A DNA stretch of 64,000 nt from Cadophora sp. MPI-SDFR-AT-0126 (taxonomy: Eukaryota > Ascomycota > Leotiomycetes > Helotiales > Ploettnerulaceae): contig JAGMVK010000001.1 in the NCBI GenBank assembly GCA_020747065.1, positions 3,100,001 through 3,164,000 of the forward strand. The letters are read 5' to 3'. Below are positions 4,426 through 60,556 of the stretch, piece by piece. Within the stretch, counting starts at the first letter, position 1, and each line of letters begins with the position of its first letter. The translations under genes and the position numbers were made by a program. Below the pieces are notes generated by a model. That model saw only the letters and a program-made list of their open reading frames with translations. It had not been told where the DNA came from and did no database searches.

Positions 4426-5122
4426 GTTGATGATCGCTGAGGGGTTGCTTGATTATTGCGGAGAGCGAGGCCCTTTTCAAGAGTCCGGAACAATTTTGAG
4501 GACTTTCAATCAAGTGGATTGTTTATTTGAAAGAAATGGTCCTTGTAACCGCAGTAGCGATTGTCAATATCTTAAGTGTAGACGAAATAGAGTTTGTTAA
4601 TAGCAAGCACACTATACAACCTTGACTAAGAAATGCCCTTTCGGGCTGTTCCGAGGCACAACGTCATGAGATTGCCCTTTCCCTTCCGAGTGCTGATTGA
4701 TGCAGCAAGCGGGAAATTAAATGCTGTGCAGTCCAGCAAGGGCAGCTCGAAACACGAGGAAGTTCAATTCATATCCAGTTAATTTTCAAACACACAAAGC
4801 CGGACAAGAAACATAAACATCGTGAAATTTTCCCAAGAGTTCAACGACTCGTTGCATCCTCCCCGCGTCTTCTCCTGCACAGCATCCGTTGAGCTAGCCC
4901 AGCTCCGGTCACTCGCAGTAATCAATCTGGGCAGTAAGGAGTTCCCGGTTTTTGGTCCGCCATGAGCACGGCACACGAGCAGTCTATAGGATCATAAGAA
5001 GACGAGAAGTCCCTCTGGGACGAATTCGTGGTGACGTTGTGCAAGGTCGAAGCGGAAACGGACTCGGAATCGAGGTCGCAGTCAGGGACAGTCTACGTTG
5101 CCCAAGCAGCTCGAGTCGAAGT
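4426..5122. promoter_or_regulatory. Divergent promoter region between the hydrolase and phospholipase D
   Basis: About 700 bp between the hydrolase start (4425) and the preferred phospholipase D start (5123). The phospholipase D frame is open from 4952 without a stop, so an earlier start at 4952 is formally possible. Codons 4952-5122 read as Arg-rich, unlike the Ser-rich tail that follows, and look like 5' UTR. No individual sites were assigned. Confidence 0.45.
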
Positions 5123-26475: not shown

Positions 26476-28186
26476 TTACGGCCCAGGATCACATTCTTGA
26501 AACATTGCCCGATTCAATATCCAATTCTCAAACATATGTTTCGCCTCCGCTGGCTTCTTCTCATTGACCATATGTCCAGCACCAAAGAGTCTCGCGTAGG
26601 ACAATCGCCCTGCTCGGATGTAACTCGCATAACCGGGAGACGATGGGCTACTCAGTTTCTTATATGTTGTCTCTGCGCGAGCAGCGCATTTTTTGAATTT
26701 TGCTGTCTTGGTTCCGAGTGATGGATCTGGATCAGTCTCCGTCCAGACAGTGTTCAGAGCTGTATCCTTTACCAGCGTAAATGGACATATGAGATCCTGA
26801 TCGCCCTGACCTAAAGTTAGTAAGGAAATCATAATAGCTTCTCTACCATGGACATACTGCGTAGAACAAAAAGTCAAACCCCGCGTTCAATATATCCTGA
26901 ACTTCTGGGATGAAGCTTTTCACTTGGTCCCCAGACCTATCGAATCGTGTCATCATTGCTTGGCTACCTAGACTCCATGTGACGCTCGTAGGCACTCCGA
27001 ATCTAATTTTACGATTGCGGTTGTTCATGAAAGGAGTCCATTTGTCCTTGAAAAATAGGTTTCTGGCTTCAAAACTAGCGTGGTCTTCATTGGCGTCGTA
27101 CACATTTCGTCCAAACTTGGCTGCCCAAGTCTCGCTCCATGCATCTTGACAAGCACCGTAATACTCACACGGTGGCTTTTTACCCGGACGTCTGCATTCT
27201 TGGATTGCCGCTTTGCAGTCGCTGATCCACTGCGGCATCAGAGAACAATTGCTCTGTACGGCTGCAGGTGTTGACCCAGGGAGAGTGAGGGGCGGTGCCG
27301 GACCGCAGAGTAGCTTAAATGTGGCTTCGCCTGCCAATGCCGCATCAGTCCACGCATTGCCGATCACGAATGACTTGAGATTGAGATTTGTAAGTTTCTT
27401 ATTGTTGATCAAATAACTGCCGATTGCCGGGATCCAGTGGCCTGAATAGCTCTCCCCGGCGATGTGGAAGTCGCGTCCTGCAAAGGACACTTGATTTCCG
27501 TTGAGCTTGAAAGTAGTCGATGGAAGGAATAGAGTGCTAATAAAGGTCGAGATGTCTATTGCTGCTGTCTGGCTGTCTTCGACGTTCGGTCTGCCCCTGG
27601 AGTAGCCGACCCCAGAGGGCTGTTCAAGGAAAACCCAAGTCAATTTCTCAGTCATTCGGAACTGATTTGTAATGAATTGTACAGCATCTGTTCGAGCTCG
27701 GTTGATGATCCTTGGCCCCCATTGATTGAATAAGCCGTATAAGGATGATGAACCAGGCCCACCGTTCATCCCTGATATAATCGAATTAGAGTCAGATCAT
27801 ACAAAATGTCCCGTACAGTTATCACTGCAAGGAAAAGAGATATCAAGAGACTTTAACTACATACATAGTACTACGGGATCCTTTGTAGGGTCAGTCTCGC
27901 TCATCACCACCCAGAAGAAGAGTTTGACTGGATTTTTGCCTGCTCCAGCCGGAATCATATAGCCACAAAATTGGTTGTTTACGGGAGCTCCATTGATGTC
28001 TGCATCGATCACAGGATCCCAAACTTTCTGAATGCAGATTGTGTTATTGCCTTTTCCGTTGTCGCTGAAACTCGATGAGCATTCTGCTGCTGCCCAATCC
28101 AGTTCCTCACCTGACAAAAGCGGTATTTGGAGGGGACTTGCGACAATACATGAGATGCAAGAGAGCAAAGCAAGAAGAAAATTCAT
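26476..28186 (-). CDS. Secreted serine carboxypeptidase, peptidase family S10
   Basis: Exons 28186-27865, 27771-26858 and 26805-26476 encode 521 aa. The N-terminus MNFLLALLSCISCIVA is a signal peptide, so the enzyme is secreted or vacuolar. It removes C-terminal residues from peptides. Family landmarks: oxyanion-hole WMNGGPGSSS, FLEQPSGVGYS, catalytic Ser in GESYSG (about residue 215), catalytic Asp in AGDQDLICPF formed across the last intron, and catalytic His in GAGHMVNEKKP. The third-exon acceptor was chosen because GCA|GGC GAT restores the AGD motif. Cysteine-rich segments after the nucleophile fit S10. The usual NPYSWN-like stretch before the EQP motif is replaced by a divergent sequence, suggesting a carboxypeptidase S1-like subgroup. 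It lies upstream of the A-D locus in the same orientation as A. Confidence 0.88.
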
Positions 28187-28762: not shown

Positions 28763-31700
28763 TTAATCTTCCACTTCCTTCTTGATGACAAAGTACTTTC
28801 TCGGATCAGTGATACTGACCACCTGTAGCCCACTCGGATCTAGCTGATACCTCTCCCACATATCAATCCGAGCGAATCCAAACTCTAGATTTTGTCTCTC
28901 ACCTTTGATCGTAAAAAACTTCTTCACAGCCGTTGTAGGTACATTTACTTCTGTGAGAACGAAACTTATCTCATTTGTCTTGTTGTCGTTCATCTTGATC
29001 ACAGGGTTTATCTCGGCGCTGCGTGGAATGAGCCGGATCTCGAGATATTTTGGTGTTCGGCTGACGAAAGTGACGAAACGTTGATTGCTGAGAAGTCGTG
29101 CACGTCCTTTCCAGTCTTTCGTTATGAGCGCGTCAGTCTTTGTAGCTTCGTTCGGATCAGGCGTATTGGGAATGTGAATCACGATCTCGCGCAGCATCTG
29201 GTTGTTTCTCGGGTCTGTGCGATTGATACCTTTTCTCATAGAGAAGATGAGGTCTAAACAAAGTCAGTCGAAGAACAGGGGACATGTGTAAATAGACTCT
29301 GTACATACCAACAAGATATTTGCTTTGTGTTGGGATATAGTCTCCCCGATCATAGGCCCCATTCTCGCGTAGTCTCAGGCCTCGGTAGTCAACAAAGACA
29401 TTCATGGTGAAGCACTTCTTCGGCATCATATTGATGGGTACATTGCCTGTATCTCTATCCGCTGGCATGATAGGATGATCTACCACAATTACTTTGCCAG
29501 CTTGACCAGGAACATCTGGGCGGACTGGAATTATTGGAGTTGGCCCCTCAGCAAGCGGAGGTTGTAGTGGAGGTCCGATGGGATCAGAAGTGCTGGGAGG
29601 TTGAGTCGGCTCCGGCTCAGGAACTCTGGATTGGACTGGGGCAGCCCAAATTTTCCGAATTCTTTGTACTTTGTTCGTGCTCTGAGCATCCACCTTTGGG
29701 TAGATGATGAAGTAATAAGCTGGATCATTGAGTTCCAATGCCAACTCAGCCGAATTGGGCACGAAATCCACGTAGCCCGATCTTGGATTCAGGGGGTCTG
29801 CACCTGGTTGCTGCTGGATTCCCTGATTGACTACTTTTGCAAGTTCACCAACTTTTAGTACCCTGCTCTCGTCATCGATTTGCTTTGCCGCCTCTGTTCC
29901 TGGTTCCAGTGATTGCAGGACTTTCCATTCCCCTGATGGCACGTCCTCTTTTGTGGTGTACAGATGGCGCAGCCTAAATTCGAACTTATTCTCAGTTGGA
30001 TCATAGGTATGTCCGAAACTGAAGCGTTGCTGGTGAGGTGGTTGTGACAACACAATTCCAGAGCGATCCGGATGCGCAGAATCAAACTTTGCTAATTCTT
30101 CTGGTGGTCGGTCCAGCAGGCAGAGTAGAGTATGGTCATCAGGACGTATCCACTGACATACTGGAGCTCGCTGGTCGTTGTCATCAATAGTGTTCCAGTT
30201 TACCTGGCGAATAATATTAGCAGGTGCTGCAGGTCGCAAGCAGGCAGGGGCTTGAGCAGTCATGAAAATTGCATACAGTGATTCTCAGATCTGGCATGAC
30301 TTTGACTATCTGGCTGCGGAGAACAAATCCGTAATGTGGAATTTGTGGTTTGATTGATGTGTTTGGCACAGTTGTCGATAGGTAGACATTGTAGAGTTGT
30401 TTGACGGCGGTCTTTACCATATCGTCATCCTTCTCAACATGATTTCCCACACTCAGAGCACCATCGATTAAACAATCCATCCAAGTGTCGTCGATGTAGA
30501 AGAACCGTATAGACTCTTCTGGAATGAAGGTAGGATCTGGAAATAGAATATGTGCCGGAATGTTGTTTAGGTAGAGACGGTCAGTGATCCATTTCAAGAT
30601 TATGGCCCAGTCTGTGTTATTTTCACCGGAGACGTTGAACTCGTTAAAGACTTCCTCGCCAGCTTTTGAAGCTACTGTCACCTCACTGAGAACAGCCTTG
30701 GACATCGCAGCAGCAAGTTGAATGTTGTCGAGGGCTGTGGTAAGATGCCGGTCGCCAACTGGAATGACCCTGCGAGGCGGGACTACATGATCCCCAAGAC
30801 GTGATCGTATGGATATGACTCCATCAAGGACTTTCTTGAGCGCATCGGAACGTGAGAGGAGCCCATTGAATTGTGCTCGGGCAATAGACGCAGCGCCATT
30901 GTGAATTTGGCTCCGAAAGCGAAGCAAAGCGGCACTGAAGGACGTATCTGATATTGCAAGGGTCTTGCCAAAATTCCAAGCAGACGAGTAGGAAAGATCC
31001 ATCAATCCTGTCTTCTTGTCAAGAATTTGATAGTTTTTTGATGTGTTTGAGCCAGTTGGCCAATCTGGACTTGGAGAGGATGCCGGCTTGATAGGCACAA
31101 GTGGGCCCCGAGTGAAGGCGGCTGTGACTTCGCCAGTCTCACAACGCCAACGGGAAATAGTATACCCATGCCTCAGTCGTGAAGCAAGCAATTTGCTTCG
31201 AGGCTGTTTCTCAGGATCCAGCTCATTTTCAAGAGCCTCGATGATAGCATCATTAGGTCTCAGCATCTGTCTGTTTCCCGGTTTCGATTGGAGAGGCGGT
31301 ATTTGGTCAGCGGAGGTAGGGCCATTTTCATTTCCAACGATCGCCATCATAGTATCGATGAAATTGATGGGATTCGGCGGGAGAGCAGTATATGTCCACG
31401 AGAAAAGTGATATCAGACCGATGCGTTCCTCTTTCTGTGCATCGGATGGCCCACCAGTTGCATCCCAGCCCTGTGCCTTGATGGTGGAATGAATGCTTTC
31501 AAGCGAAATCAGGTGCACGACTTGTGTTGTTGGAGTCGGGTTCTTGAAGGCACCCGTCCGAGCCGAGATAACGATGCTGAAAAGGCCTTCTTCTTCAACT
31601 CCGGCATCTGGGCAGCCGATGGTATTCACATTGCGAACATGAGCTAGGTACTTGTTTGACTCAACATCCTTGCATAATTTGTAGAAAATATCCTTCTTTG

Positions 31701-32550
31701 GATAAATGACCTGAGTTGTTTCCTTTGACCGTCTTCCAGTCTTGATCTCCTCCAATCCAGCTGGATCTGACTGATAAATTGGGAGCCTGTTGTTCTCCTT
31801 GATTGCGAAGTAATCCTTTGCTAACATTGAAAAGGCCCCACTAGCAGGCTGGCGTTTGATGTCAGCCGTTGCACTGTCCAAGTCCGCAAACTCAGGAACA
31901 CCAAGATCTCGTGCTTGCTGCGCAGAGTCCAGTTTCAGATCTTCGACATCGAAGACAAGCAGGCGAACCCATGGGACCATTGATCGATATCTCATCTTAT
32001 CGCGGTCTTCAGTTGGGTTGCCTTGACTGTCCAGTGTTTTGCCATCCACATTGAGATCTGGATCTCTCAGTCTTGCCCTATTCAGCGGATCATCATTTCC
32101 ACCAGCAAACTCGGTGTCGGCATCCCGTTCCCACGGGAAATGCGGATCATTGATCACGATATGAGGCAAAATGCGTCCCTCATCTTGATGACCCTCTGGC
32201 GGGTAAAAACTATTGACCAATTTGGGGTCCAGGCTGAACTGCGGAGCCATAACCTCAAAAATTTGTTTCTCTGAGGGTTGAGTATCAGGTAGGCTCGCCG
32301 TCCCTTTTCGGTTACATATTCGGAGGCTTTGTTCATTTTGTTGACCTTTTGTGGAAGATATAAACTGCTCGGCGATGATGCAATAGTTTCCAGCTGTCAG
32401 ACTTGGTTTATAATATGAAAACAGTTGCATGAAACCCTTTGGAAGTGTGGACTCGTTATCACCAGATATACCCCGAATCCGCCTTTCGAGGTTTCTCTGC
32501 GTCAGGAACCGAGGGCCATCCGGATTTCCACGAGTTGTTTGGGCGACCAT
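28763..32550 (-). CDS. Gene A: large protein of unknown function (1219 aa), partner of B and D
   Basis: Exons 32550-30277, 30203-29309 and 29253-28763. The first intron (73 nt) has GTATGC, a TGCTAAT branch and CGCCAG, and joins DLRIT to VNWNTIDDN; the second (55 nt) has GTATGT and TTTAG. No signal peptide or membrane span is visible. Exon 1 is a mixed alpha/beta stretch with distinctive segments: FMQLFSYYKPSLTAGNY near the start, RHGYTISRWRCETGEVTAAF and GLMDLSYSSAWNFGKTLA in the middle, and FPDPTFIPEESIRFFYID at about 665-685. Exon 2 contains a proline-rich linker (about 950-985). I recall similar segments in uncharacterised bacterial and fungal proteins but cannot name a family. It shares a 491-bp divergent promoter with B. 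A further 5' exon at 32756-32592 is possible. Confidence 0.7.
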
Positions 32551-33041
32551 GGCGAGATGAGTGCTGATGAGAACTAATTGCAGCCGCTCACGATCTGAAG
32601 GCTGTAGAAGTTGTGAAGAGATCTTTCAATTTGAAAGCCAGATATGTCACGATCACTTGAGCTCAGGAACGTGAACTTTCTGGCTGGGACAACATTCAAT
32701 CTTCCTGCCAAGTACTCGTTGAGTGCTCGCTTAATTCCCAAGGATTTCTCGTACATGGTGGCTTAACTTTCTATCGTCAGCTGCCTAGCTGCTGCAGCCA
32801 CAATACCATGGCGCATTTGGTGCCACTACTTCTCACTTTCAGCTGAAATTTAATGTCTCAGCCGTTGTGAGAATATTGGCAAACACCGAAAACTTGCAGG
32901 CATCCAGGATGAGATTTCGGAAAGTTCTTGGAGATGACCCAAATAGTAGCCTCATCGGCAAAGCTCGAGTGCTCGCTGTTGAATGTTGAGGTGTATCTCA
33001 ACTTGGGATTTTGAAGCTCTACTTGGGTGGCCAATTCTGCT
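32551..33041. promoter_or_regulatory. Bidirectional promoter region of genes A and B
   Basis: 491 bp separate the two start codons. A short minus-strand frame (32756-32574, starting MYEKSLGIKRALNEYLAG) looks protein-like and may be a first exon of A. Otherwise this is the sole space for both promoters. Confidence 0.55.
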
Positions 33042-36000
33042 ATGATGGAGAACGTTGCCATCCCAATCCATCTTTCGGCCTTTGTTCTCACGCCAGAGTG
33101 TGCTGAGAGCGATGGCCCCGATCGAATTGGTATCTTGACACAACCAAATTATATGGGACTCCGGCTTGATGAAGCCCTCATGCAGCATGACTTGCTGGAT
33201 CACGTTGATTTTCATCTCACCTCACCCCCAGAAACGAATGCAAGACTTACGGATATTGGAGCTGCCCTTCATGATGCTGATCCTCCACCCTATCGTCGCA
33301 ACCGAATGGGCGTCTATCTCCACTGGAGCCTTCCAAGATGTTACAGAGCCGCCCAGAAGACAAAAGAGAGTCAATCATCATCGGGCGTTCGTTCCGATGA
33401 AGAAGCAGATGATCTATCAACTCCGCAGTTCCCCACTGTCCCGAATCGATGGCTCGTGGTCCGAAGGCTGACAAGCCAGCAGAGCGACGACGGCACCATC
33501 TTGCCAGAATTTCAGACTTGGATTGTGGAAAGTAACAGGGTCCGTAGAATTCAGGATATCGATGACACTGTTGATATTGAGGTCGAAGTAAGCAACTTCA
33601 TGCGAGGCAACACAGATCCAAGCGATCCAGATTGGAGGAAAGTACTTGAGCGCCAAGCGGAGATCTGTATCGGAAAACGAAATGAGTACTCAGGATGGCC
33701 TCATTCGAGTCCTGTTTGGAGAGAAGAAGAGCGGGGTGCCGAGACCGACCCGGATTTCATGGATCTGACAGTTCTCAGCTCATCAAACCCTATCTTCCCA
33801 GACTACACACCCCACAACGGAAGTGTGTTTTCAATCATAGACACCTTCAAATACCGAGCTCCAGATGGCTCTGCGAAATATCTTTTGGAGGCGAAAGCTG
33901 ATTATTTTGTCATCGGTTGGAACGCTCTTTCTAAAAGTGATGTGATGGAGCCCCCAGAACCGACGAAACTTCAAACAACATTGGACAGTCTCAACCTCTC
34001 CCTCGCGATCCCGACAGATGCCTCAGAAAATGAGAAAGAAAGAATCAATTCTTTACTGGAAGTTAGTGGAAAGGCTCGGTCTGTCATTCATGGGGCGATA
34101 TATGGAGTCCCGTTCAAGTGGGGCTCCAAACCTCCCAGTAAGGCCAAAAAGGTCGCTGATAAATTCGGCCCTAGTTTCACCATGGAGCCACTTTCGGCTG
34201 GAGTAACACCGTTAGATGGTATCATAACGTTTCTCAGAGCTCATAAAGGAAGCTCTGAAGTTGACACAATATTTGGAGATGATACTGCCGACGAAGTTGC
34301 CGAAATGGTGCTGACCATGTCCGATTTGCTGTATGCAGCAAATGACTCGTTCGATGAGCGAGCGAAGGCCCAGGACATCAATACCTACGACGCATTGTAC
34401 GGAAAATCCATCTCATCAGGATATCAGTGGAATTTTGCTGAGGCTTCCGAGGCTGGGAAGCCTCCAAAGTCACCAAGTCCGGAGCAGTTCGCAACTCTCC
34501 TGGATCTTAACGAGAAGCAGGCTCGTTTTGACTCCTTGGATAGGAAGCTCGTCCAATTAAGGCATGACTTGTTTTGTGAATGGTGGAAGTACGTCAGCGA
34601 CAAAACAAACATCCTGAACACAATCCAAGACAGGTTTCGTGCCAGAGTTAATGACCTAGCCGATCAAATCCGAAAGCTCGAGAATTCCACTTCTCTCTTG
34701 ATAGCCGAACTCGAACAAGCAAATCAGAACCCGTCTTTCAAGAGAGTGACCGAAGACCCGTTTTACATGCGCAAGGAGCCGACGGTGTGTATTGCCGGAC
34801 TGGAGTCAGGTTGGCCAAAGGACTTCTTGGATATACTCCCTGTGAGGGTTGACAGTATCTTGAGACCAAGCGAATCTGGTCTTGAACAAACAATCTTTCA
34901 AGGTGTCGAGAGTCCATTCCCAGCTGCGATACAGGCAACAGCGCTGAAGATCCTTGGAGAGTACAAAGCCCAGACATTGAACTCAGTAATCCAGTCTCCT
35001 CGAAAAGGATTTCAATACTGGGGAAATGAAAACCCTTTTGAGCCGCTATTTCTTGAGTGGGAGGCACTGTACTATCACATCGACCGTTCCAAATGGACTA
35101 TAGGTGTGAAACCAAGTCCGGTAGGGCTTCCAACTTCGCACCTTCGGTACGGTGTTTCCGAAATCTTATCTCAGGATCCGCAGAATCAACGTGACCGTAG
35201 ATGGATCAGCGGTCGAACATTGATCTTGCCTCAGCCGATATTCTCTTTGAAAGCCGCTGTCAAAGCAGTCCTCGACAGCGACCCCAACTCTCCATTCAAG
35301 GATCCTGTTGCACAGGCAGAGCTGATGCGCGGACTTGACATGCTCCAATTTATGTCATGTCCCCTTTCGGGCCTGCAAGAGCATCTCACAACTCAAGTCA
35401 TAGGTACTCACGTCAAGCCGACGATAAATAAGCCAGGCAAGACAAACATACCTCTAGTTCCGGCGGCGCAGCCTGACATAGGCTTTACGCAGGATGTGTT
35501 GAAATTGATTGACTCTATGAGGTAACAATAGGATGCTCCGAACATTGGGATGTGCTAAACGCTGTCAGTGACATGACCCCTTACGGTAATTTGCAGGATT
35601 TCGCAGCTTCGGAGTACCCAATGCCGCCTTTCAAGTCTGTAACTCATGGGCAGCTCATTATCACTAAGGTGAGAGACCATCATTGGAATCAAAGATTAAT
35701 TACTAAGAGGCTTTAGTTGAATATCATCGATAAATTTGGTCAAGGCGTCGCATTACCTGCCCCGAAACGGAAACTTCGGATTCCCCCGGACGTCCCAGAG
35801 TGTGTACACCCATGCCTTAGCGACTTCCTTATACCCGACATCGTCAACAATCAACTCAACACAGTATACCCAGAGCTACAGGCTCCAGATCACGGGACCT
35901 GGCCGATGAGTAGGTTCATGCAATTGACGCCAGCAATCAACCAAAATTCTCGCTTAAATGCAACTTTTGTCAACAGATCAGAAAGTACCGGTTTCCCATT

Positions 36001-37219
36001 CTGGCACGAGACAGAGAATGATAAGCCAGAATCCCCTATCTTTGGATGGATTGTTGTCAACTATCAGGATCTTGGACTTCAGTTCTTCCGGCCAGACGGA
36101 CGCTTCTACCGCGAGGTTCGCGTTGGTGGCCCAGACAACGCTGTTCTCGGCTCGAAATGGCTACCATTTGATCCACCTACAGCGAGCGAACAGGCAGTTG
36201 CCTCTCAGCTTGATGAGTTGATAACGAAAATGATCGACAAGATGGACAATGGAAAATTTCTTAAGTCATTCTTCCACATGATAAACGGGGCTATACGAAC
36301 GATGCCCTATGCACCATCTGAGTACTCCGGGTATGCGAATGCTCTGGTTGGAAAACCATTGGCATTGGTTAATGCTGGGTTCTCGTTAGAGCTTGCTACT
36401 CCAGCCTTGAGGGCTCAAAACACACTTGGGAGGACTCCGTTAAGTGAGCAAGAAGAATTGGCCTCGTACAGGTTCCCCATCAAGCTGGGAGATGCTGAGA
36501 GACCTTTTGATGGAGTTATTGGTTGGTTCGACACAGATAACAACACCGATGGCCGCACGAACTGGAACAAAGTCTATACTTATGCGCCAGATCCAGAAAA
36601 TTCTGACTACGAAATGGCCTCTCCTCGCAACTTCATTCGTCTGTCTCCGCACTACCTAGATCCGGTGACGCTCAAGATAGCAGGCACCGATAAGGTCTAT
36701 CAGACATACAGACAAGCCAAAACAGCCCAATACCTCATAAAAACTATGCTCATCGATCCCTATACGCCAGTGCATGCCTACAGTCCGATATTACCCATCA
36801 CAAGTCTCTCTCTTCCGCCCTGGACCATCCAACAGGCCATGACACGCATGACAGCATTCTTTCGCCTGGGTCCTTGCCTGGTTTCTAGTGACGTGCCAAC
36901 CGGATATGACGAATCTAGGAAGCTTGATCCGGCGACCTGGGCTGCAACCCAAGAAGACACTTCTGAATCGCCTGCGATGCCGGCTATTCGACTTCCCGTA
37001 TCCGGAAAGCATGGTCTCTGGCGATGGTTACAGCCATATGACGTGTCAGGTGCCGCTCCAGAAGATCATCACGACACAAGATTCAACGAGATGGACGTCA
37101 CCCAGGAGGATACAGCAATTCGCAAAGATCCGCCGCCGTACACAATGGTTGAAGGATATTTGCAACTTGCCCGACCTCTTCTGCACAGCGATGTTTTGAC
37201 TCCATCTCCAGGAAGTTAA
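33042..37219 (+). CDS. Gene B: large protein of unknown function (1360 aa)
   Basis: Exons 33042-35521, 35569-35668 and 35717-37219; introns of 47 and 48 nt with GTAACA/CAG and GTGAGA/TAG. The middle exon restores SMSDMTPYGNLQDF, and the third continues LNIIDKFGQG. No signal peptide or transmembrane segment. The N-terminal part has GVYLHWSLPR and VPNRWLVVRR, pattern-like segments I recall from uncharacterised bacterial proteins (memory, unverified). A coiled-coil-prone region lies at about residues 482-563. A later conserved-looking block has FFRPDGRFYREVRVGG and a PYAPSEYSGYANALVGKPLAL segment. Size, orientation and packing link it to A and D. The start at 33042 is preferred because the frame upstream has only GTG. 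Function unknown. Confidence 0.72.
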
Positions 37220-37347
37220 TTGGGACTGTAAGAAGGACAATCACGAGTGCTCATTGGATTCAGATAGTGTTTCGTTTGTCTGCAATAGAAATCAATTTTA
37301 CCAAACCAACATAGAAGCCCTTCCTGGAAACCGATGTGACACAGGCT

Positions 37348-38232
37348 CTAAGTCCTGTTGCTGAAATTTGAAAGCCAACTTCCCCCGATGGCACCAGCAG
37401 CCAAAATACTGAACAACCAAGCCAAAGACATATATATCGTGAGAACATTGCCTTGTATCCATGGCGCATGATGAAGATCTCCAGTCTGCTGATCCTGCAC
37501 AGCACCCAAGCTCAACGAAGCCCAAATTCCATTATCTGGCTGGCTTTGGACCAGACCAAGAATGCCGTAGAACTGCGACAGAAAAGTACACATAGCGGTG
37601 ACCGAGAGGGCAACGAGCAGGGCGTACGTTGCTAGGATAATAGCGAGTGACTGAACTGGCTGCTGAGCTGCAGTGCCTGTTACTGCTGGAGTGGCTGCGG
37701 AGACCTTTTGAGGTCTACGAGATGAACTCTCCATCGACTCTTCAACATCATTTGAAGTCGTGACTGCTGCTTGCCCACCTTTCACAGCCCTTGGGATGAA
37801 GACAATCGAGAGGCCGATCAGTGTTGCTAACGCCACTGACACGAAGACCAATGCAGCTAGAACGAGGTTGCCAGATAGATGAATCTGTTGACACATGCGC
37901 CAGTCGCCCGTGGTCGAAGAGTAGGCATCAGTCTCGTTTGGTGTCTGACAAGCAGTCTTTCCGCGCCCCGACACTGAAAATCTGGAGCAAGTAATGTCGT
38001 ATCTCAGGACCTCTGTTCCGTTCCTCGAAGGATTTGCACCACATAGTACGAATGGACTTCGATAAAGCGTGAAAACGGGATCTTTCCAGTCCAAAGGTTG
38101 GAGCTGAGGTGGGAAGTATTCTTGCCGGACCCAGTCTCGAGATGTGAATGACACCGCGACGAAAGATAAGGAGAGGATGCCGAAGATCAAGGGTAGGGTC
38201 GAGCCGATGATGGACATGATTTTTGAGGCCAT
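37348..38232 (-). CDS. Gene C: four-span membrane protein, claudin/SUR7-like topology
   Basis: A single exon of 294 aa. Hydrophobic segments lie at about 12-28, 122-146, 195-218 and 262-286. The long first loop holds four cysteines (64, 82, 95, 114) and two N-glycosylation sequons (NGT, NET). The loop between spans 2 and 3 is hydrophilic and Ser/Thr-rich. This topology (short N-terminus, large Cys-containing first outer loop, four spans) resembles claudin/SUR7/PalI-type fungal plasma-membrane proteins, but I see no family signature, so the name is structural only. It converges with B (128 bp gap) and is divergent from D, placing it inside the A-D locus. Inference: it could anchor or deliver the three large soluble products. 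Confidence 0.72.
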   Translation of the reverse strand: MASKIMSIIGSTLPLIFGILSLSFVAVSFTSRDWVRQEYFPPQLQPLDWKDPVFTLYRSPFVLCGANPSRNGTEVLRYDITCSRFSVSGRGKTACQTPNETDAYSSTTGDWRMCQQIHLSGNLVLAALVFVSVALATLIGLSIVFIPRAVKGGQAAVTTSNDVEESMESSSRRPQKVSAATPAVTGTAAQQPVQSLAIILATYALLVALSVTAMCTFLSQFYGILGLVQSQPDNGIWASLSLGAVQDQQTGDLHHAPWIQGNVLTIYMSLAWLFSILAAGAIGGSWLSNFSNRT

Positions 38233-38836
38233 AGTGGGAGAGATGCAGCTACTGTGCTCCGTGTTGTTAAGTTTTTTTTCTGCTCTAGAATTATGAGAAA
38301 GTTGAAGAGCTAAACTTGAGGACTGGTTAGGGGCTCATTGGTGATCATGGACGGTACACCACTCTAAAAGCCAAACGAATCAAAACATCGCTTGGCAGTG
38401 GGCTGGATATTGTCCGAAAACTCACTTTAGCGAGAAACCATTATCCCCGCAGCTGAAAAAAGTAATAATCAGCTGGAATGTAAGGCGTTCTGGGCGTATG
38501 CACGCAAATGGACGTAAATCTTGGGGATATGACTTCCATAGGGAAGGATCCGTCAAGGCCAGAGAGCTGAAACACCGTCAAGCCACACTTATTGGCGGAG
38601 GGGTCAACATCGAATCCTGTGAAGGACACTTGGTACTGCTCCATCAGGCTCGGGTGAAATTTTTAACGCGGCAATGGATAGGCTGGGGAGATTTGAGACG
38701 ATCTTGGCGAGGTCAAGTGTTCCCAGGTCGCCACTTTCACTCGCGGCAAACATCACATACTCCCAGAAAATAGAAGGATACACTTCTTACACCGCTATGG
38801 GTGAGCTTTCTGCTGAATAAATGCTCTCCACCCAAT
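38233..38836. promoter_or_regulatory. Bidirectional promoter region of genes C and D
   Basis: 604 bp between opposed start codons. The D frame is open back to 38801 but the first ATG is at 38837. No site assigned; worth comparing with the A/B promoter for shared motifs. Confidence 0.5.
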
Positions 38837-41800
38837 ATGCAGTCCAACAGGCGTCTACGGCGGCGAATTGTCGAGAAGTACCATGTGATTAGTAAAGCAG
38901 TGAAGAAGTTTCGCAGGAAACCATCTGGAAAAAGTAGTGATGGGCACCTTGGAATCCAGTCAGCAGAGACGCATGTTGCATCGAAGGCGCCGATGGAAGG
39001 GTCGATGTCTGTATCGACACCACAGCCAGATGAAATTGATTCTAGAGCTCCTACCGCTACCTTGGAGAATACGCCAGCAGCACTCGTCAACACATCAGAA
39101 ACTGCTCCCAAAGAGCGTGTCACCACACCAGAAGCACAATTGACGACAGCTCAGCACACATCAGATAACTTGCAGGCCAAGATTGCTCACCAAGTAACAG
39201 AAGTGAGAAGAATGGCAGCTGAGGACGAAGGACTGAGGATCTTAAGCGCAGATGGAAGTGGGATTCATCCTGACTGGCAAGACTTCATCAACCATGCCAT
39301 AACCACCGAGAACATAATCGATCCCGGCCAGCCCAGCGTCACGTCTGGAGACAATGTTACATGCTCAAGCTCACGATTTTTTGGTTGTGTCTTCACAACA
39401 AATAGCGTACAGAGGGCATTTGAGATCCCCCGAATTGGTCACATAGAAGATTCGATTGTTCTCGGACTCCAGAGTGTGGGAGCAGCGAGCACCAATGTTC
39501 TTGCTGCAGATCTTGTGTCAGCTTTCGCTATTGATACTTCCAACCTCAAAGAGCCCGTTAAAACAATTATTTCAGCTCTCAGTAACGAAGTTGGCGGGGT
39601 ATTGCGCCACTTCAGTGTTGTTAACGAAGATGGTTTGAAGAATGCATGCTGGATTCGAGCATTGGACACCAACACGCTTGAGGTCAATAACCTATCCTTG
39701 TATTACTGGTATCATCCACTAACGAGAATCCATCAGATTTCAACTGCTCTGACATGGAAGTCGACCAGCAGCGGTGACGTGGACCTCGGGCAGATTCAGA
39801 ACTCCCTCCAAGATGCAACTGGATTCTTTGTAGAGGAATCAAAACTAAAATTTACTGCTAGTAACCCGCCGCTACTTCGTTTAAAACACAGAGCATTCAT
39901 CACTCGGGAGGGAGGCGTCTTCTCAATTGGGTCACTTTTTGAGGTCATGGTCGTACTACCGGTTTCTGGATTTCTGATAAACCTGAAGTCTCGCACAGGC
40001 AGCTCCTTGTCAGCAACAGTAACCAGACCGATTGGTAATCTTGGAGGCAGTTGGGGAGATCTTGCTGACATACTGGGCGGCGGGCTTACTGAAGGCGTCA
40101 TCGATCCCTCTGAGGCCGGTATCTTCGATGGATTTGAGTTGTGGAAAGTCTCGATCAAGCCTTCGGGTCGCTCTGACTTTGAGAGGCCTGAATCCTTTAT
40201 GATCGGCATGTTTGTCACTCTAAATCTTCCTGGACACCCCCTTACGATTGGCCTGACTTATGATTCTTCGGCCAACACTTTCGAAGGACAGCTGCTATTG
40301 AAGTCAACTTATCAGGATCGACTGAATCCGAACTTCGATGAACTTGAAGATCTTCCCCGTGGCAAGTGGTTGACACTACTGGATCCGCCCGATTTGAGAA
40401 ATGCTGGTCCATTCAGTGCACTTCCGAGATTCGTTCCCACGAGACTTGATAGTGCATCCATCACATACACCAAAGGCTCAGATGAGGCACCATATGAGAT
40501 GAGCTTTTCTGGCTCTCTGGTGTCGGACAATACCGCGCAGAATTCTGGCAAAGTTCCGTTTCCATTTGACTGGAGTGGAATGACCTTGGAATACTTTCGT
40601 CAAGGTGCTTCTTCAGATACAGAAAATGATAGTGTTGAGACTCTGACGCTGAATACCACCTTTGAGCTGGACTCTGTATCCGGTCGCTTTGAGTCAGGCA
40701 CCATGGATCTGAGCTTCACATCAACAACAGACGGCAATGGCACAACTTCCTGGACTTTGGGAGGCAGCGTGCAATACATTCAACTCGGTGCCATTGCCGA
40801 GTTCATCAATCCACAGTTCAAAGACGGGATTTTTGATGTGATTGGAAAGCTCAGCCTGGATGCTCTTGAGGTTCTATATACCTGGGACGAAGCGAGCTCC
40901 GAGAACTCTCCAGCCGCTACCAGCTTTCTGTTTTCAGGAACGATTGGCTTTGGGGAGTTGAAGCTGAGAATATTCTACCAATATGCATCTTCGGATGCCA
41001 TACGGACTGGCAAGACAGCTGCCAAACAGGCCAAGGACCAGAACGGAGAGCTAAACCGAAATCTGAAGGAACTGGCTGAAACAGAAATTGTTGACGATAA
41101 CGAGCCGACATGGAGGTTCGATGCATATCTAGATGTTGGCAGCGCCGGGGCCACAATTGGTCGGATTGCTGATTCCATTGTCAGCGATGCTTCCAAAAGT
41201 CTTCCTCCATTCGTCCGCGATATCGAGGTCCAGCCGCCAGCAGGGAGCGACAATGGTCATCTTATCAGCCTCCATACAGGAAAAGCAACGAAGAAAGCGG
41301 GCAACAATAACACTCTGGATGAGGGGATCGTTTTTCTCCTCAATGTTTCTCTGTCATCTGTTGAGTTCTCATTCGAACAGTTGTCATTTCCAGGCAGCGA
41401 GACCAAACGACTCTTACGAGTAAGTGTCGGCAAGTTACCACTGCTCAATAACCTGCCTGTTGTGAAAGAACTTCCGCAACCCTGGTCCAAGCTACAGTAT
41501 ATGTGGATCCCAGAGGGTGGATTCAGTCGCAATGAAGTGGCTCTCCTGAATGAGAAGTTAGAAACCGAATCACCAGATCACAAGCTCTTCTTCAAACCTG
41601 CAACTCGAGATGCAGCAGACAAAGATGCTCCTGGTGATCCCACGGTACTGGTTGAAGGTCATCACTTCATTGTCGTCGTTGATAATGAGGCGATTCTGGA
41701 TCACGTCTTCGCGCCAGATCTACCTCAAGATTCACCTGACGAACCAGGCGAGCCGACAGAAGATCCACCTCCACCAGTCTCCAACGCCCAGGAAAAACCT

Positions 41801-44423
41801 CCTGCTAAAGGTTCCATGACAAAACAGCTTGGGATTCTCGACGTGAGTGGGCTATCGCTCCAGTACAAGAACAATCATTTGTACATCTTTGTGGATGCAA
41901 CCGTCAAACTTGGTCCAATGTCATTCTCGTTGATTGGCTTCGGGGTTGGACTAAACATATCCAAGTTGAGGCTCAATGATCTATCTGCTCTTGGAGACAC
42001 ATCCTTGACCGATCTAATCGACTTCCAGCTACACGGCATGGAAGTGAGTTTTGACAACCCGCCGATTCTAATTGCTGGGTGTTTCTACCACGATATCATC
42101 CAGAGAGGCGATCAAAAAATCGATGCGTATCGAGGTGGTATAGGTGAGTTTGCATCACAATCCATCTATACATATATGCAAAGCTGAATGATGTACAGCC
42201 ATAGCGATCCCCCCTTACACTTTCGTTGCGGTAGGTGAGTATGCCCAAGTCGAAGAGCGAGGAGTCCAGTTCAAGAGCGTTTTTATATTTGCGAAACTGG
42301 ACGGACCCATCATCGACTTCCAGTTCGCCATTCTGCGAGGCCTCCGCATAGGCTTCGGCTATAATTCCATTGTTCGGTCTCCTGCCGTAGAAGAGCTGTT
42401 TGACTTCCCACTTATCAGCAACGGTGCATCTGATGGTGCTGGGAACCATCCAATGGCCATTCTTGAGAAAATGTCTGGAGGCGAGAATCCTTGGGTGCAG
42501 CTGAAGAATGACGAGTTGTGGTTCGCATTTGGCTTCACCATAAGCTCCTTCAACCTGATCTCCGCAACCGCGGTCGCTCTGGTGCAATTTGGCGGCGCTG
42601 GTCCTGTCTTCAGAATATTTGGCGACTTGACCATTTCGTATCCTCCGGATGATATCTCGGCAACTGCAAAACTGTTCTACATCGAGGTCGTGATGATGGC
42701 TGAGCTGAACTTTGCCGAAGACTGTTTCAAAATCGAAGCTGCTCTTGCTCCCTCATCTTTCGTTTTCGTTCCGTATTGCAGATTGAAGGGCGGATTGGCA
42801 CTTTATTCTTTCTTTGGACGGAGTCCACATGCAGGAGACTGGGTGTTCACCGTTGGTGGTTATCATCGAGCTTTCCAGGTTCCCACGCACTATCCAAGAG
42901 CTGCCAGACTTGGGCTGGACTTCAATATCAGTATCATCTCGATCCGTGGAGAATGCTACTTTGCAATCACTCCCAAGGCAATCATGACAGGAGCACTAAT
43001 TAGATGCGAACTGCATCTTGGTCCCGTATTCGCTTGGCTTGATGCTGCATTCGATGGTAAGTCATGCCCGATCTTCTCTAAGTTGGAATATTGGCTAACA
43101 GATCATTAGCCATGGTCCAATTCTCACCATTGCATTATTGGGTGTCCATGGGGGTCGAAGTCGGAGTCGAGTGCAGGATACCGTTGTTGTTCTGCACTGT
43201 CAAGATTCGAATCTGTATTGGTGCACGACTTGAAATCGAAGGACCAGACTTTGGTGGTAGCGCATAGTAAGTTTCCATAATATTCCATCACTTCAAACAT
43301 CATCCTTATTGCGAGTAGTGTCGATTTCTGGTTCTTCTCTTTCTCCTTCGATTTCGGAAAGCGAGTCGAGGAACCCCCACCAATATCCCTCCAAGAGTTT
43401 TACCTTCTGTGCGAGAAGAGTGGACCGCCTGATGAATCACCCAACAGCTCTCCAGCCGAAGACCTTGTGGTTCAGCTCAAGCTCAGTCTCGAATCTGGCG
43501 CATTTTCAATGCCGTCTTTGGACAAGGAAGGCCAATCAACTCCGGATGATTCTGGGGCTGGTGCAAAGTGGTTCGTGAAGGGGGGAAGCTTTCAATTCCG
43601 CGTATCTTCGGTATTCGCCTTGACAGAAGCGTACCTGGAAACAGAGGAAAGTGCTCAGCGTCAAGACGACGGAACGACAGTACTTGTACTGGACCAAAAT
43701 GCGTCTCTCATGCAGTCAGTAGAGCCAGGACCTGCTGCGGGGAAATTGTCGTCATTGCCCATGGATCTGTCCGCGAGTTCTGCCCCAGATGGCATAACCT
43801 CTAAAATGTGTATCGCCATCCAAGACGTTGATCCGAAGGGAGAGACCGTGGAGGGTTTCAAGCCCACATTCATCGCCAAAGAGATGCCTCTCACACTCTG
43901 GGCAGATCCAAAACATGCACCTGATCGCTTGAGCGCAGAGAAAGGGACTGTTCAGCTGCCTATGGCAGTCACCTTGTCCGCACCAGAACCAATACTCGCG
44001 TTCGCGAAGATCCCACCCTTCAATGCAACAGATATGGCTAAACTGTGTGCTGGCTCACATGAGGTCCCTGATCTTCCTGGAGTTGCTCAATCCGAGCTTC
44101 TGCCAGAAGTACTTGTAGCCTCGACAGCGACACCAACTCAAAGGTGGGCGGAAATGCAACAGACTTGGACAACAGCAAGCACTCAGAACATCGATCTCGC
44201 AAATAGTATCACCGAATTGTGCATGTCGCAGCTAGGATGGGATAAGCCCCGTCCTGATGTTGCGTTGAAGGCTGAGATGACGAGAACAGAGCCGTGGAAA
44301 GTTCCTGTTGCTTTTCCGACAAGGCTGGTTACTGGTACCTCTAGAGAGGAGTTGGGCATTGAGGATGGATTGGATAGTTTCTATTTGGAATTACCTAGGA
44401 CGACCGCTGCTCTTGTTTCCTAG
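38837..44423 (+). CDS. Gene D: giant DUF6603-like protein (1808 aa)
   Basis: Exons 38837-42143, 42199-43056, 43110-43266 and 43319-44423; three introns of 55, 53 and 52 nt with branch-like CTGAAT/CTAAC and TAG or CAG acceptors, all frame-preserving. The N-terminus is basic (RRLRRRIVEK), followed by a Ser/Thr/Pro-rich tail to about residue 110. Residues ~110-950 are largely beta-rich with repeated amphipathic strands. A proline-rich linker (about 955-995) precedes a C-terminal region of about 480 residues that I recognise as DUF6603-like: SFSLIGFGVGLNISKL, LDGPIIDFQFAIL, RIGFGYNSIVRSP, FTVGGYHRAFQVPTHYP, GECYFAITPKAIMTGALI, EIEGPDFGGSAYVDFWFF. DUF6603 occurs in fungal and bacterial proteins of unknown role (from memory). 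There is no secretion signal or membrane span. It lies head-to-head with C. Confidence 0.78.
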
Positions 44424-45349
44424 GACTTATTTAAGTTGTTAGGAGTTTGCAGAAAATTGGCTGTGATCAAATGCTAGTCCAGTCAATGTCCTGTATGATG
44501 TCATTCTCCTTTACGACCACTTGTTTGAAACATTGTACTGAGTAGGTATATGGTGAGGTTCCCAATCAAAAGGATGATACCGAAGGAGCAGGTCTAAATG
44601 TCAAGGTGGAGTGGATTTAGAAGCGAGTTAGAAGAAGATGGAAGATGGCGTTTCTGATCCGTCCACGAAACGTGGAGCCGAGGGGCGCGAAGCGACGTTG
44701 TTATTTACCGGCATGGATATTAAGACTTTCTTCACACTAGAGATTGAGGCTTAATAGATGGGCAATTGGTACTTCGGCGGTAAAACGGGCCGCTCCGAAT
44801 TGAGAACGTGACGTGAAAGCTTCGGCTTTTGGATAAATTGGATGAAGAAGATTCATCGTACGGGATCTGAAACGTCGCCGAGATTGAAGTATGGGAGATT
44901 CGTGGATGAGGCGTATGTCTATTCTAGGACTTATGGGAGAGACATGGAGAAACCTTATTCGAATTGGTGTGGTGCAAGGTATGAATGGATGGGTTTTGAG
45001 CTCCTCGATGGCGTTTTTGGGAGAGGGGTCGGAATGCTTGCTCCGAGGGAGACAAAGCTTGTCGCGGGTAAAGGAACTGGAATTATTGTGATCGAATCGA
45101 TTGAAATTGAAGTGCAGGTACCTCACGGCCCGGGCTGCCTTTATATCAACTCCTTGCGAGTCAAAAGATGAGATGGTTTTGTTCATATGACCCGATTAGA
45201 GCTCGAAGTTGGTACCTAGCTCTTTGGGAAGTGTTTATATTTTTCCTTTTCCCGTCCCATATGATATCCTAGAAACCTGTCAGTAGATATCGACCTATCT
45301 AATTCATTTACATCTTTTTCAAAGTCAAATTAGCATACTTCCTTCCAAT
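44424..45349. other. Intergenic between gene D and the PL20 lyase
   Basis: 926 bp. A 149-codon minus-strand frame (45186-44737) and short plus frames overlap each other and show no motifs. The last ~150 bp is the lyase promoter. Confidence 0.45.
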
Positions 45350-46499
45350 ATGCATTTCTCTGTCGCTCTTGTTGCCTTTGTTGGGTCAGCCTCCAGCGCC
45401 ATTCTATGGGATGGTCGGTTCAATACGTTTTCTTCTAGCACGGATCTTAATAATTGGTCATGGAGCAATCAAGTTGGTCCATACCAATACTACATCGTAA
45501 GAAGCCTCCTCAAAATGAGTTTACTGCTTCATACTGACGAAATTCAGCACGGCCCCTCAGCGGTGACATCTTACATCAACCTCTCTCCCTCCTACAAGAA
45601 CCCTGCCGATTCCGGCAGCACTCAAGGAGCAAAGTTCACATTGGATAGCACCTCCTTTTGGAACGGACAGACAATGAGGAGAACGGAGCTGATCCCTCAG
45701 ACCACTGCTGCCATTGCCTCCGGCAAAGTTTGGTACCATTTCTCGATGATGCGGTCGGCCACAAATGCCCCCAGCATTTATCGTGAGCATCAAATCAACT
45801 TCTTTGAGTCTCATTTCACCGAGATGAAGTCTGGATGGATTTCCGGGGCGGCTGGCAATTCCAACCCCGCCCTGCAATGGTTCGTTGGAGGACAGAGCAA
45901 GTGGAGTGTGAACTGGGACGCTGGAGTCTGGCACAATGTTGCCTATGAGATTGTGAGTTCCCAAATGAATTTGAGTTTCAGTGAAAGGTACTAACAGAGT
46001 GAAGGATTTCTCTGCCAATACCGTTGCCTTCTGGCACTCAACTGGTTCCAATCCCCTCACACTCACCGTAGCAGCCGTCAGCGCCTCGACCTCCTCGAAC
46101 GGTGCAGACTGGCATCTTGGTGTTCTTGAACTCCCCGTCTCAGGCCAAGCAGACACTAATGAAGATTTCTACTTCAGTGGTGTGTACATCGAGAGCGGAT
46201 CTCTGACCACTTCTGTTGCTGGGCCAGGTGGTGTCGTCGTAAGCTCTTCCGCTGCACCTGCAAGCTCATCGACGACTTCCAAACCTGCATCGGGTGTTTC
46301 TTCGTCAAGTGCTAAGCCGACTACTTTGTCAACTTCGACCAAGTCGACTGTGGTGACGACCACTTCCAGTGCTCCCGCTCCCGCTGGAACAATTGCAAAG
46401 TGGGGCCAATGTGGCGGGCTGAACTGGGGAGGCTCTGGGACTTGTGTTGAGGGAACAAAGTGTACTTTCTCAAGTGACTACTATTCGCAGTGCTTGTAA
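45350..46499 (+). CDS. Secreted glucuronan lyase, polysaccharide lyase family 20, with C-terminal CBM1
   Basis: Exons 45350-45496, 45548-45952 and 46005-46499 encode 348 aa. Signal peptide about 1-17 (MHFSVALVAFVGSASSA). The catalytic part (about 18-230) matches fungal PL20 endo-beta-1,4-glucuronan lyase: LWDGRFN at the mature start, MRRTELIP, HQINFFESHFTEMKSGW, DAGVWHNVAYEIDFSA. It cleaves beta-1,4-glucuronan by beta-elimination outside the cell. A Ser/Thr-rich linker (about 245-310) leads to a fungal-type cellulose-binding module, family 1, of about 36 residues with four cysteines (WGQCGG, CVEGTKC, YYSQCL). The last intron has the branch GGTACTAAC. This is a plant- or cell-wall-degrading gene placed next to the A-D locus. 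Confidence 0.9.
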
Positions 46500-58570: not shown

Positions 58571-60556
58571 ATGTCATCCTCAGTGTTCTTCAAATTCAAG
58601 TCCCAAAAGGAGCCCCAGCAGATCAAGTTCGATGGTACGGGTATCTCGGTCTTTGAGCTCAAGCGTGAAATTATCATCACCAGCCGTTTAGGTGATGGCA
58701 CGGACTTCGACTTGGATATTTTCGATGAAGACGCCAAAGAAAGTAGGTCTTCCGCATCCATAATACTGATTAGTATATTAATGAAAAGTAGAATACGATG
58801 ATGATACCGCAATCATCCCCCGTTCCACGCTGGTCACTGCCCGCCGAGCTCCCGCCGCGAAGAAAGGCGCAGGAAGAGCCGCAAGATACGTGACAGGTAA
58901 AATGCCCGTAAATGCGAAGAACTCATCCCGCAAGGAACAATCAAAGCAGTCTGCCAAAGCAAGCGCAACAAGCGATGCAATTGCCCAGATGAACAACGCC
59001 TCCATGACCGAGGAGCAGCGAATGGCGGCCATGTTCCAGGCTCAGAGCGAGCAGTGGAATGATCAGCTCCAGGAAATGGGAAAGTAAGTTTGCCGCACCT
59101 CGCTCTGCTATAACCAAGCTAACAATTGTTTAGACAAACCAAAGTATTTCACCACACCACCCATAAGAAGACCTCCGAGAACGAGCCCCCGCCAGGATAT
59201 GTCTGCTACCGCTGTGGCGAGAAGGGACATTGGATCAAGGAGTGCCCTACGAACGACGACCCCAACTACGAGAATAAACCCCGGATCAAGCGTACCACCG
59301 GTATCCCAAGATCCTTTTTGAAGACGGTGGACAAGCCAGTGCTGACTGGTGATGGGGAGGATTCGAAACCACCTTCTGGTATCATGGTGAATGCGGAGGG
59401 CCAATTTGTCATTGCGGAACCAGATAAGGCATCATGGGAACAATTTCAGGCAAAGACCAAATCATCTGCTGCCGCGCAGAAGGCTGCTGCGTTGGGAGAC
59501 AAGGAGTTGCAGGATAGGGGATTGGAGTGTTCGATCGACAAGAGAATATTCATAGACCCAATGAAGACGCCCTGTTGTGAGAAGACATTCTGCAATGAAT
59601 GCATTACTAACGCGCTCATCGAGAGCGACTTCACTTGCCCTGGCTGTCAGACTGAAGGAGTGTTGATTGATGATCTTAAGCCTGACACTGAGACATCTGC
59701 AAAGATTAAGGCCTACTTGGAAGAAAAGAACAACGCCAACAAGGTCGAGAAACAACGTTCGAAGAGTCCAAGCGTAAAGCTCGAAGAGGAACCTGAGATC
59801 AAGACAAAGACCAAGTCACCAAGTCCCAAGCCAGCCGCAAAAGACAAATCGAAGTCGCCACCAACATCAACCTCTACACCTAACCTCAGCTCGGCATCTG
59901 TAAAGTCTGATAACTCTAAGAAACGTCCAGCCGATGAAATACTGGAGAACCCAAAGATTCCAAAGGGACCGAAGGCAATGCAACAACAGGAAGCACAGAA
60001 GCAAGCTATGCAACAACAACAGCAGATGATGAATGGTATGAACGGCTTTCCCAACATGCCCTTCATGCCTCCAAATTTCTTTAACGGCATGCCAAACATG
60101 ATGAATGGCGGCTACGGTATGGGCATGCAGAACCCTATGATGATGAACCCCATGATGAACATGAATGGCATGAACGGCATGAACGGTATGAACGGCATGA
60201 ACGGTATGAATGGCATGAATGGCATGAATGGCTTCAGCGGGTATCCCAATATGTACGGTGGAGGGTATCCCAACATGGGCAACAATATGGGAAACATGGG
60301 TATGATGAACGGGGGTAGTAGCATGGGTAATGGAGCAACAAATAATGGAGTTGGTCCTGGTGCTGGAGGAAATATTATCCCTGCAGCAAATGGAACTGCC
60401 ATACAAGCCGGCCAATTCCCAAATCAGCAAAAGACCATTTTCTCAGAACCACTACCAAATGAAGAGGACAATGCGTACTTCCGCAAGCCGGTCAACCCAC
60501 ATCGGCACAATGGCCGACAACGCAGGGCTAGACCCAGTGATTACCGCGAATTGTAG
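58571..60556 (+). CDS. mpe1: Mpe1/RBBP6-type protein of the mRNA cleavage and polyadenylation factor (DWNN, zinc knuckle, RING)
   Basis: Exons 58571-58742, 58792-59083 and 59134-60556 encode 628 aa. Mpe1 is a CPF subunit that recognises the polyadenylation signal RNA and supports 3' cleavage in the nucleus. Order: ubiquitin-like DWNN domain about 1-75 (VFFKFKSQKEPQQIKFDGTG, then DTAIIPRSTLVTARR after intron 1); a Lys/Ala-rich spacer; CCHC zinc knuckle about 176-193 (YVCYRCGEKGHWIKECP); conserved GIPRSFL segment; a RING/U-box-like zinc region about 286-326 (CSIDKRIFIDP, CCEKTFCNECI, TCPGC); a Lys/Ser/Pro-rich tail; a Gln/Met/Asn/Gly-rich low-complexity region containing eight MNG units; and a final REL terminus. 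Confidence 0.92.
60161..60232 (+). repeat. Minisatellite of eight 9-bp units encoding Met-Asn-Gly
   Basis: The unit is ATGAAYGGY, repeated eight times in frame inside mpe1. Variation is only at synonymous third positions. It probably varies in copy number between strains. Confidence 0.9.

Follow-up and report, generated by a model that had tools for sequence, protein, structure and literature searches.

A four-gene cluster of giant proteins in Cadophora, present twice in the genome and related to a D-A-B operon of bacteria

What holds together four neighbouring genes of a fungus, three of which encode giant proteins and one a small membrane protein? The question was raised by the genome of Cadophora sp. 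MPI-SDFR-AT-0126 (54 Mb in 38 contigs), in which positions 28,763 to 44,423 of a 64,000-nucleotide stretch of contig JAGMVK010000001.1, referred to here as the window, hold the genes A, B, C and D. An earlier note, made from the sequence alone, had proposed that these genes encode a co-regulated assembly, perhaps of bacterial ancestry, and the co-occurrence of A, B and D had been set beforehand as the test of that proposal. Homologues of A, B and D were found not to be scattered: the set occurs twice in the Cadophora genome, its members lie together in other fungi, and in four bacterial phyla they are arranged in the order D-A-B. A-D is one inherited module.

Gene A (28763-32550, minus strand; exons 28763-29253, 29309-30203 and 30277-32550) encodes a giant protein of 1219 amino acids with no family name, and gene B (33042-37219, plus strand; exons 33042-35521, 35569-35668 and 35717-37219) encodes another of 1360 amino acids. 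Gene C (37348-38232, minus strand) is a single exon for a predicted four-span membrane protein of 294 amino acids with cysteines in its first loop. Gene D (38837-44423, plus strand; exons 38837-42143, 42199-43056, 43110-43266 and 43316-44423) encodes a DUF6603 protein of 1809 amino acids by the splice model. The divergent pairs A/B and C/D have shared, unstranded upstream regions of 491 bp (32551-33041) and 604 bp (38233-38836), and the tails of B and C are 128 bp apart. In the stop-to-stop frames, all four genes were uninterrupted once their seven introns (47-73 bp, all GT..AG) were spliced out. The four intact genes and the three intergenic distances described in the earlier note were thus reproduced from the gene models, with the length of D corrected from 1808 amino acids. 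Hydropathy profiles had no peak above 1.6 in A and B, two marginal peaks in D, and five peaks in C, of which the first two overlap to give four spans. Among the matches listed, D was 98% identical over the searched region to a protein of Cadophora sp. DSE1049, B was 90% identical to a protein of Cadophora gregata and A 91% identical to one of C. malorum.

The second copy of the set was located by genome searches with PF20248 (the DUF6603 family), with the first-exon frames of A and B, and with C, each of which gave one further place, in all cases on contig C36 (expectation value (E) 0.001). When the full proteins were compared by tblastn with a fetched 50 kb of C36, D (minus), A (plus), C (minus) and B (plus) were found at 956.5-975.3 kb, with copies that are 23-50% identical, piece by piece, to A-D of the window. 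The order D- A+ C- B+ as against A- B+ C- D+ in the window shows the set of genes to be the unit, with no fixed layout. The least similar pair is C (26-27% identity, tblastn E 1.6e-14), whose second copy has three spans above the hydropathy threshold; because the second cluster is the sole other genomic place found for C, this gene is counted as part of the module in Cadophora. In contrast, none of the 74 open reading frames (ORFs) of at least 100 amino acids that lie in the window outside the cluster matched the region of the second cluster, and the window neighbours are therefore not counted as members.

Differences between the window and the second copy amounted to 0.66-0.68 at codon position 3 versus 0.34-0.47 at codon position 2, over 1000 codons of A, 1308 of B, 257 of C and 1124 of D in tblastn-aligned stretches alone, which biases the comparison toward similar codons. 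The contrast was weakest in C. This pattern is as expected if A-D were kept by purifying selection in both copies, in line with the earlier view that the genes are under selection.

Homologues numbered at least 248 for B (120 listed), at least 108 for A and at least 132 for the DUF6603 part of D (120 listed); about 8000 candidates were scored in each search, so that the counts are lower bounds. Among the matches listed, the named homologues of B, A and D are nearly all fungal, those of A being fungal plus one Saprospiraceae bacterium, and one match of B comes from the basidiomycete Gautieria. Among the matches listed, longest contigs of identical length, an indirect sign of a shared contig, linked A with B 15 times, A with D 18 times, B with D 16 times and all three genes 6 times, and by the same sign 27 of 107 A contigs were linked to a B or D match. 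By their locus tags, the genes lie close together in Zymoseptoria brevis contig350 (g00002, B; g00003, D; g00005, A) and Xylographa soralifera (MMC17_009075, A; 009076, D; 009078, B). Pairs of A and D are seen in Trapelia (MMC30_005404/005405), Exophiala sideris (PV11_08777/08776) and Phialocephala (PAC_14910/14911), and pairs of B and D in Aspergillus wentii (MW887_001024/001025) and Cadophora gregata (ONS95_003111/003109). A DUF6603 protein from the assembly of the hornbeam Carpinus fangiana (P0308) ranked amid the fungal ones and is probably a fungal contaminant of the plant genome.

Bacterial relatives stood at the end of these searches, the homologue list of A closing with the Saprospiraceae protein P0237 (E 1.2e-26) and the listed matches of D with the Streptomyces protein P0357. 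A scan with one peptide pattern from the A alignment, in a collection of one genome per species for 84,980 bacterial and archaeal species, gave three loci, from Pseudoalteromonas, a gammaproteobacterial metagenome-assembled genome (MAG) and an Aquimarina MAG. Profiles of D, A and B, built from one in four of the listed homologues, none of which bears a bacterial name, and from the window protein, found all three genes in all three loci, adjoining and on one strand. With DUF6603 as the sole bait, 17 of 395 genomes matched in the phylum of the Aquimarina MAG (16 above cut-off) and 9 of 398 in that of Pseudoalteromonas, counts that include the two seed genomes and the divergent class 2 described below; none of 14 control genomes contained DUF6603. 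A tblastn search with P0357 also gave plasmid records with DUF6603 from Streptomyces (4), Embleya (2) and Paenibacillus (1), of which five of the seven were analysed as loci, the other two being further S. clavuligerus records.

The 22 class-1 loci selected by D (8 Pseudomonadota, 9 Bacteroidota and 5 plasmid loci; four phyla overall) all had A next to D on the same strand, and in 19 of them B followed A. With the three A-baited loci included, D and A were adjacent in 25/25 and D-A-B stood in order in 22/25. Left out of these counts were L053, a sub-cut-off match, and L055, which is the same locus as L052. The match to A was split over two successive ORFs in 12 of the 25 loci and lay in a single ORF in the other 13; the first part of the split match ends at profile position 507-526 and the second begins at 589-621. 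A split that recurs at one position speaks for real gene fission or fusion. Gene fission or fusion generally points to contact between the halves, and in the fungus of the window A is a single gene. The bacterial likeness that the earlier note had suggested for A and B is therefore well founded, as bacterial homologues of A, B and D were all found. The three-gene operon on plasmid pSCL4 of Streptomyces clavuligerus ATCC 27064 (locus L034) provides a clear bacterial model for the fungal set.

Seven Bacteroidota loci with divergent DUF6603 proteins (L080-L083 and L085-L087) were set apart as class 2. All seven have the operon order D2-X-Y-Z, with X of 965-1161, Y of 1512-2221 and Z of 568-644 amino acids. 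Comparison by hhalign related D2 to D with a probability of 99.7. The same comparison aligned X with A over 78 columns at a probability of 36, so that X is perhaps A-like through a short N-terminal stretch, and Y and Z were unlike B; class 2 was rejected as the same system. The peptide LPVRLETRF is present in class-2 Y of L080 and L081.

What kind of proteins these are was examined by family, structure and literature searches. D belongs to DUF6603, with PF20248 scores of 273.8 bits for exon 2 and 52.4 bits for exon 1 against a curated cut-off of 27, and the DUF6603-like region reported for D in the earlier note thereby gains a family assignment. The core of the domain lies at 41819-43266 on the plus strand and spans exons 1-3; the genome search with PF20248 gave three matches in D (C1:3141819-3143297), the last of which extends into the intron after exon 3. 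The Pfam line for this family reads 'Family of unknown function' and does not name the constant partners A and B or the fungal C. No Pfam match above cut-off was obtained for A, B or C, and no NCBIfam match above cut-off for A or B. PHROG gave nothing better than E 0.01 for A and B, and PADLOC had no model for the bacterial D and B proteins searched, with a single weak match (E 0.013) for one A. In the PDB, neither profiles built for A, B and D nor a search with the single sequence of C gave a match at E 1. By hhalign there was no credible match among A, B and D, nor of the companion family E (below) to any of them, and both kinds of relationship were rejected. An enzymatic role or known fold for A was likewise rejected, as the model of a compact A (P0236) had a mean predicted local distance difference test score of 54 and no usable match. 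Neither DUF6603 nor PF20248 was found as a term in the searched literature, which is thin in subscription journals, and wider searches, in sources seen in part, gave nothing recognised as a D-A-B system.

The DUF6603 core of D is predicted to form a very large curved amphipathic beta-sheet, with apolipoprotein B (ApoB) and porins as the nearest folds. ApoB100 was the top aligned solved fold for the D model in Foldseek, at a root-mean-square deviation (rmsd) of 8.7 Å. D is similar to the large lipid transfer proteins of the apolipoprotein B and vitellogenin type in its large curved sheet with alternating polarity, but it differs in that the three scanned exons of D (1, 2 and 4) had no Vitellogenin_N or related Pfam domain at E 1, and the likeness is one of arrangement alone. 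Outer-membrane porins (OccK/OprD, maltoporin) aligned at an rmsd of about 10-13 Å in the fold search alone; unlike them, D has no signal peptide that we noticed, and its family is also found in Gram-positive bacteria and in fungi, both without a bacterial outer membrane. C is similar to SUR7/PalI and claudin-like tetraspans in its four spans and first loop with cysteines, but it has no PF06687 match, and a genome search with PF06687 gave 11 matches, none of them at C.

Neighbouring genes of the bacterial operon were scanned in part, at 20 of the 25 class-1 loci. A family designated E, which looks immunoglobulin-like by eye and for which Pfam has no family, stands after B in L033, L034 and L074-L077; a weaker likeness to E is seen in L027, L028 and L029. 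E has a start like LxYxVxTxPxPL, is doubled in L033, L034 and L075, and sometimes carries an extra domain (kelch in L077, PLAT in L034). It had no match at E 1 in the window or the second cluster and was rejected as a member of the fungal set. Lipid-linked neighbours were Lipase_3 in L027 and L028, a phospholipase D (PLD)-like protein in Paenibacillus (27.4 bits, with the cut-off at 27) and a PLAT protein in S. clavuligerus. Metallo-beta-lactamase-type ORFs lie upstream of D in two phyla (L076 and L078 above cut-off, L067 just under it). Kelch proteins neighbour the operon in L029 and L077, proteins of the collar or S74 tail-fibre type in L029, L078 and L088 (Bacteroidota), and glycine-rich collagen-like ORFs, recognised by eye, in L027 and L028. 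As these additions vary and D-A-B is fixed, D-A-B would be the machine and the rest its attachments. At greater distance, L033 (Streptomyces sp. NBC_01276) has CATRA conflict-system and CHAT-domain genes at 5.6-10.7 kb, which is 5-10 kb before D. L036 (Paenibacillus polymyxa p-YT9A) has phage baseplate V, DUF4280 and GH-E nuclease genes at 1.3-7.4 kb, about 8-14 kb before D-A-B, with the baseplate-V genes about 9-14 kb away.

The explanation that we favour, at about an even chance of being right, is that A, B and D represent the bacterial D-A-B operon in fungi and that their products form a joint-acting soluble assembly that engages lipid, with C docking it in the fungus. The joint inheritance of A, B and D, with C in this fungus, is established. 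The three products very probably act together, most likely in one large soluble protein assembly. D would provide the curved amphipathic sheet that engages lipid, either as an ApoB-like lipid-binding belt or by a porin-like closure on or in a membrane, and A and B would be its obligate scaffold partners. In bacteria, the set is topped by variable add-ons such as E, kelch or collar proteins, lipases, and a PLD-like or PLAT protein; in this fungus, the tetraspan C is one of its members and would probably dock the assembly at a membrane. From operon conservation and the gene fission or fusion, we infer that A, B and D bind one another. With less certainty, the predicted fold of D and the lipid-linked neighbours suggest that the assembly may bind or move lipid or enter membranes. 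In a bolder form, which we offer tentatively and rather doubt, this would be an undescribed machine built on a giant lipid-engaging beta-sheet in at least four bacterial phyla. An early fungal ancestor would have taken up the whole operon, split it up so that each gene is transcribed separately, given it a tetraspan anchor, and kept and duplicated the set.

Trees of A and B were made under LG+G4 with hand-picked fungal rows; the trees, those of D included, omit bacterial ORFs that cover less than 30% of the profile range and all homologues outside the hand-picked set. The 22 rows of fungal A and the 27 of fungal B each form one side of a branch with support of 100. With midpoint rooting, the A tree places the fungal branch within a group (support 96) that also holds L074, L076, actinobacterial plasmids, Paenibacillus, L075 and P0236. 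For D, a C20-mixture tree of well-filled columns was made with 40 of 59 rows; P0357, four proteins without an organism label, nine fungal rows and five bacterial rows (four long-branched, one near-duplicate) were dropped. In this tree fungal D is one clade (100), and with class 2 as the outgroup the fungi fall among bacteria, near L074 and L076 (Bacteroidota), actinobacterial plasmids and Paenibacillus. A single fungal origin of A, B and D is thus likely, and transfer as one block would be the simplest reading because the three genes form one operon in bacteria. The direction is unsettled, and bacterium to fungus is the better bet given how widely the set is spread in bacteria and that its class-2 relatives are bacterial as well. 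The known cases of bacterial operons acquired by fungi are metabolic. The present set is similar to horizontal operon transfer in that several bacterial operon genes occur together in fungi and form a single fungal branch in the A and B trees and in that one of two D trees which has the better model, but it differs in its giant proteins without enzyme domains and its unsettled direction. The GC content of the cluster equals that of its surroundings, and GC at third codon positions in A-D (0.47-0.52) lies close to the values of five neighbour ORFs (0.48-0.61). A recent transfer is not supported by this composition, which means that the event is old or that the genes have adapted; it fits an old event and proves nothing.

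Several results weigh against this account. Among the A contigs, 80 of 107 had no such link to B or D, which short contigs and incomplete lists may explain. In bacteria, the 20 kb fetched for L078 and L079, from one genome, showed no B, in L088 B precedes D, and the loci are partly non-independent (L066 and L067 are near-identical). No Foldseek match of the D model reaches E 0.001, the rmsd of 9-12 Å indicates shared arrangement and not shared descent, and alternation of polar and non-polar residues is common to most beta-sheets. Lipid-linked neighbours were present in 4 of the 20 class-1 loci with at least one scanned neighbour, two of the four being close relatives, and the other neighbours are of the kelch, collar, S74 and metallo-beta-lactamase types. 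The other D tree, made under the plainer LG+G4 model with 59 rows and a class-2 root, placed class-1 bacteria within fungi on very long branches. In it fungal D is not one group and the fungal label needs five changes, partly because proteins without an organism label fall among the fungi. A tree with class-1 bacteria as one clade was not rejected (approximately unbiased test, p-AU 0.767), and its log-likelihood was 6.55 higher than that of the free tree that nests fungi in bacteria.

The main rival is that the module is a weapon in conflicts between microbes, with D as a membrane pore or injector, A and B as a scaffold and the variable downstream gene as cargo, captured by fungi for use against bacteria or other fungi. 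We consider this unlikely. It would account for the sporadic distribution of PF20248 in the two phyla (9/398 and 17/395 genomes), for carriage on plasmids (7 records) and for variable downstream genes that include lipases or PLD-like proteins. It would also suit the collar or S74 proteins of three loci and the conflict-type and baseplate-V, DUF4280 and GH-E genes ahead of the Streptomyces and Paenibacillus copies. However, the defence-system and phage-family searches described above gave little or nothing for A, B and D, and an export signal was not noticed in these proteins by inspection without a signal-peptide program. A toxin-like neighbour was unrecognised in most scanned loci, whose neighbours were scanned in part. 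No phage record was found by tblastn of one bacterial D, and none of 12 viral-contig DUF6603 candidates was confirmed; on these results a phage or virus origin of the module was also rejected.

An improbable alternative is that A, B and D build a layer outside the cell or in its envelope, which E, kelch, collagen-like and collar proteins decorate. The presence of E after B in at least six loci, immunoglobulin-like by eye alone, is consistent with such a surface or matrix structure, as are the kelch repeats of L029 and L077, the collagen-like ORFs of L027 and L028, seen by eye, and the collar or S74 proteins of the three Bacteroidota loci. Against it, A, B and D have no evident signal sequence at their start, by inspection with no program run, and E has no match in either fungal cluster at E 1. 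A small-molecule biosynthetic gene cluster is very improbable: the genes form a cluster, are duplicated and have a patchy inheritance, as is the case in fungal secondary metabolism, but A and B match no curated family above cut-off, and Pfam shows no enzyme domain in A-D and thus no backbone enzyme (polyketide synthase, nonribosomal peptide synthetase or terpene cyclase), in agreement with the earlier note. That unrelated genes are merely adjacent is hardly credible, as nothing was found in its favour and it is contradicted by the recurrence of all four genes in one genome, the fungal co-occurrence and the bacterial operon.

The neighbours of the cluster are ordinary genes. They encode a phospholipase D with a weak PX match (4922-10582), a serine carboxypeptidase of family S10 (26843-27796) and a GH131 protein (45287-45994), none of which recurs at the second cluster. 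At 59123-60556 there is a zinc-knuckle protein with weak U-box/RING matches that presumably resembles Mpe1-type 3'-end processing factors. No tRNA genes are present within the window.

Three protein families of about 650 to more than 3000 residues that travel together across four bacterial phyla and fungi are strong candidates for an overlooked macromolecular machine, possibly missed because its genes have been annotated one by one. Viewed as a set, scattered 'hypothetical proteins' become one testable unit, and the module is a candidate case of a non-metabolic operon common to bacteria and fungi.

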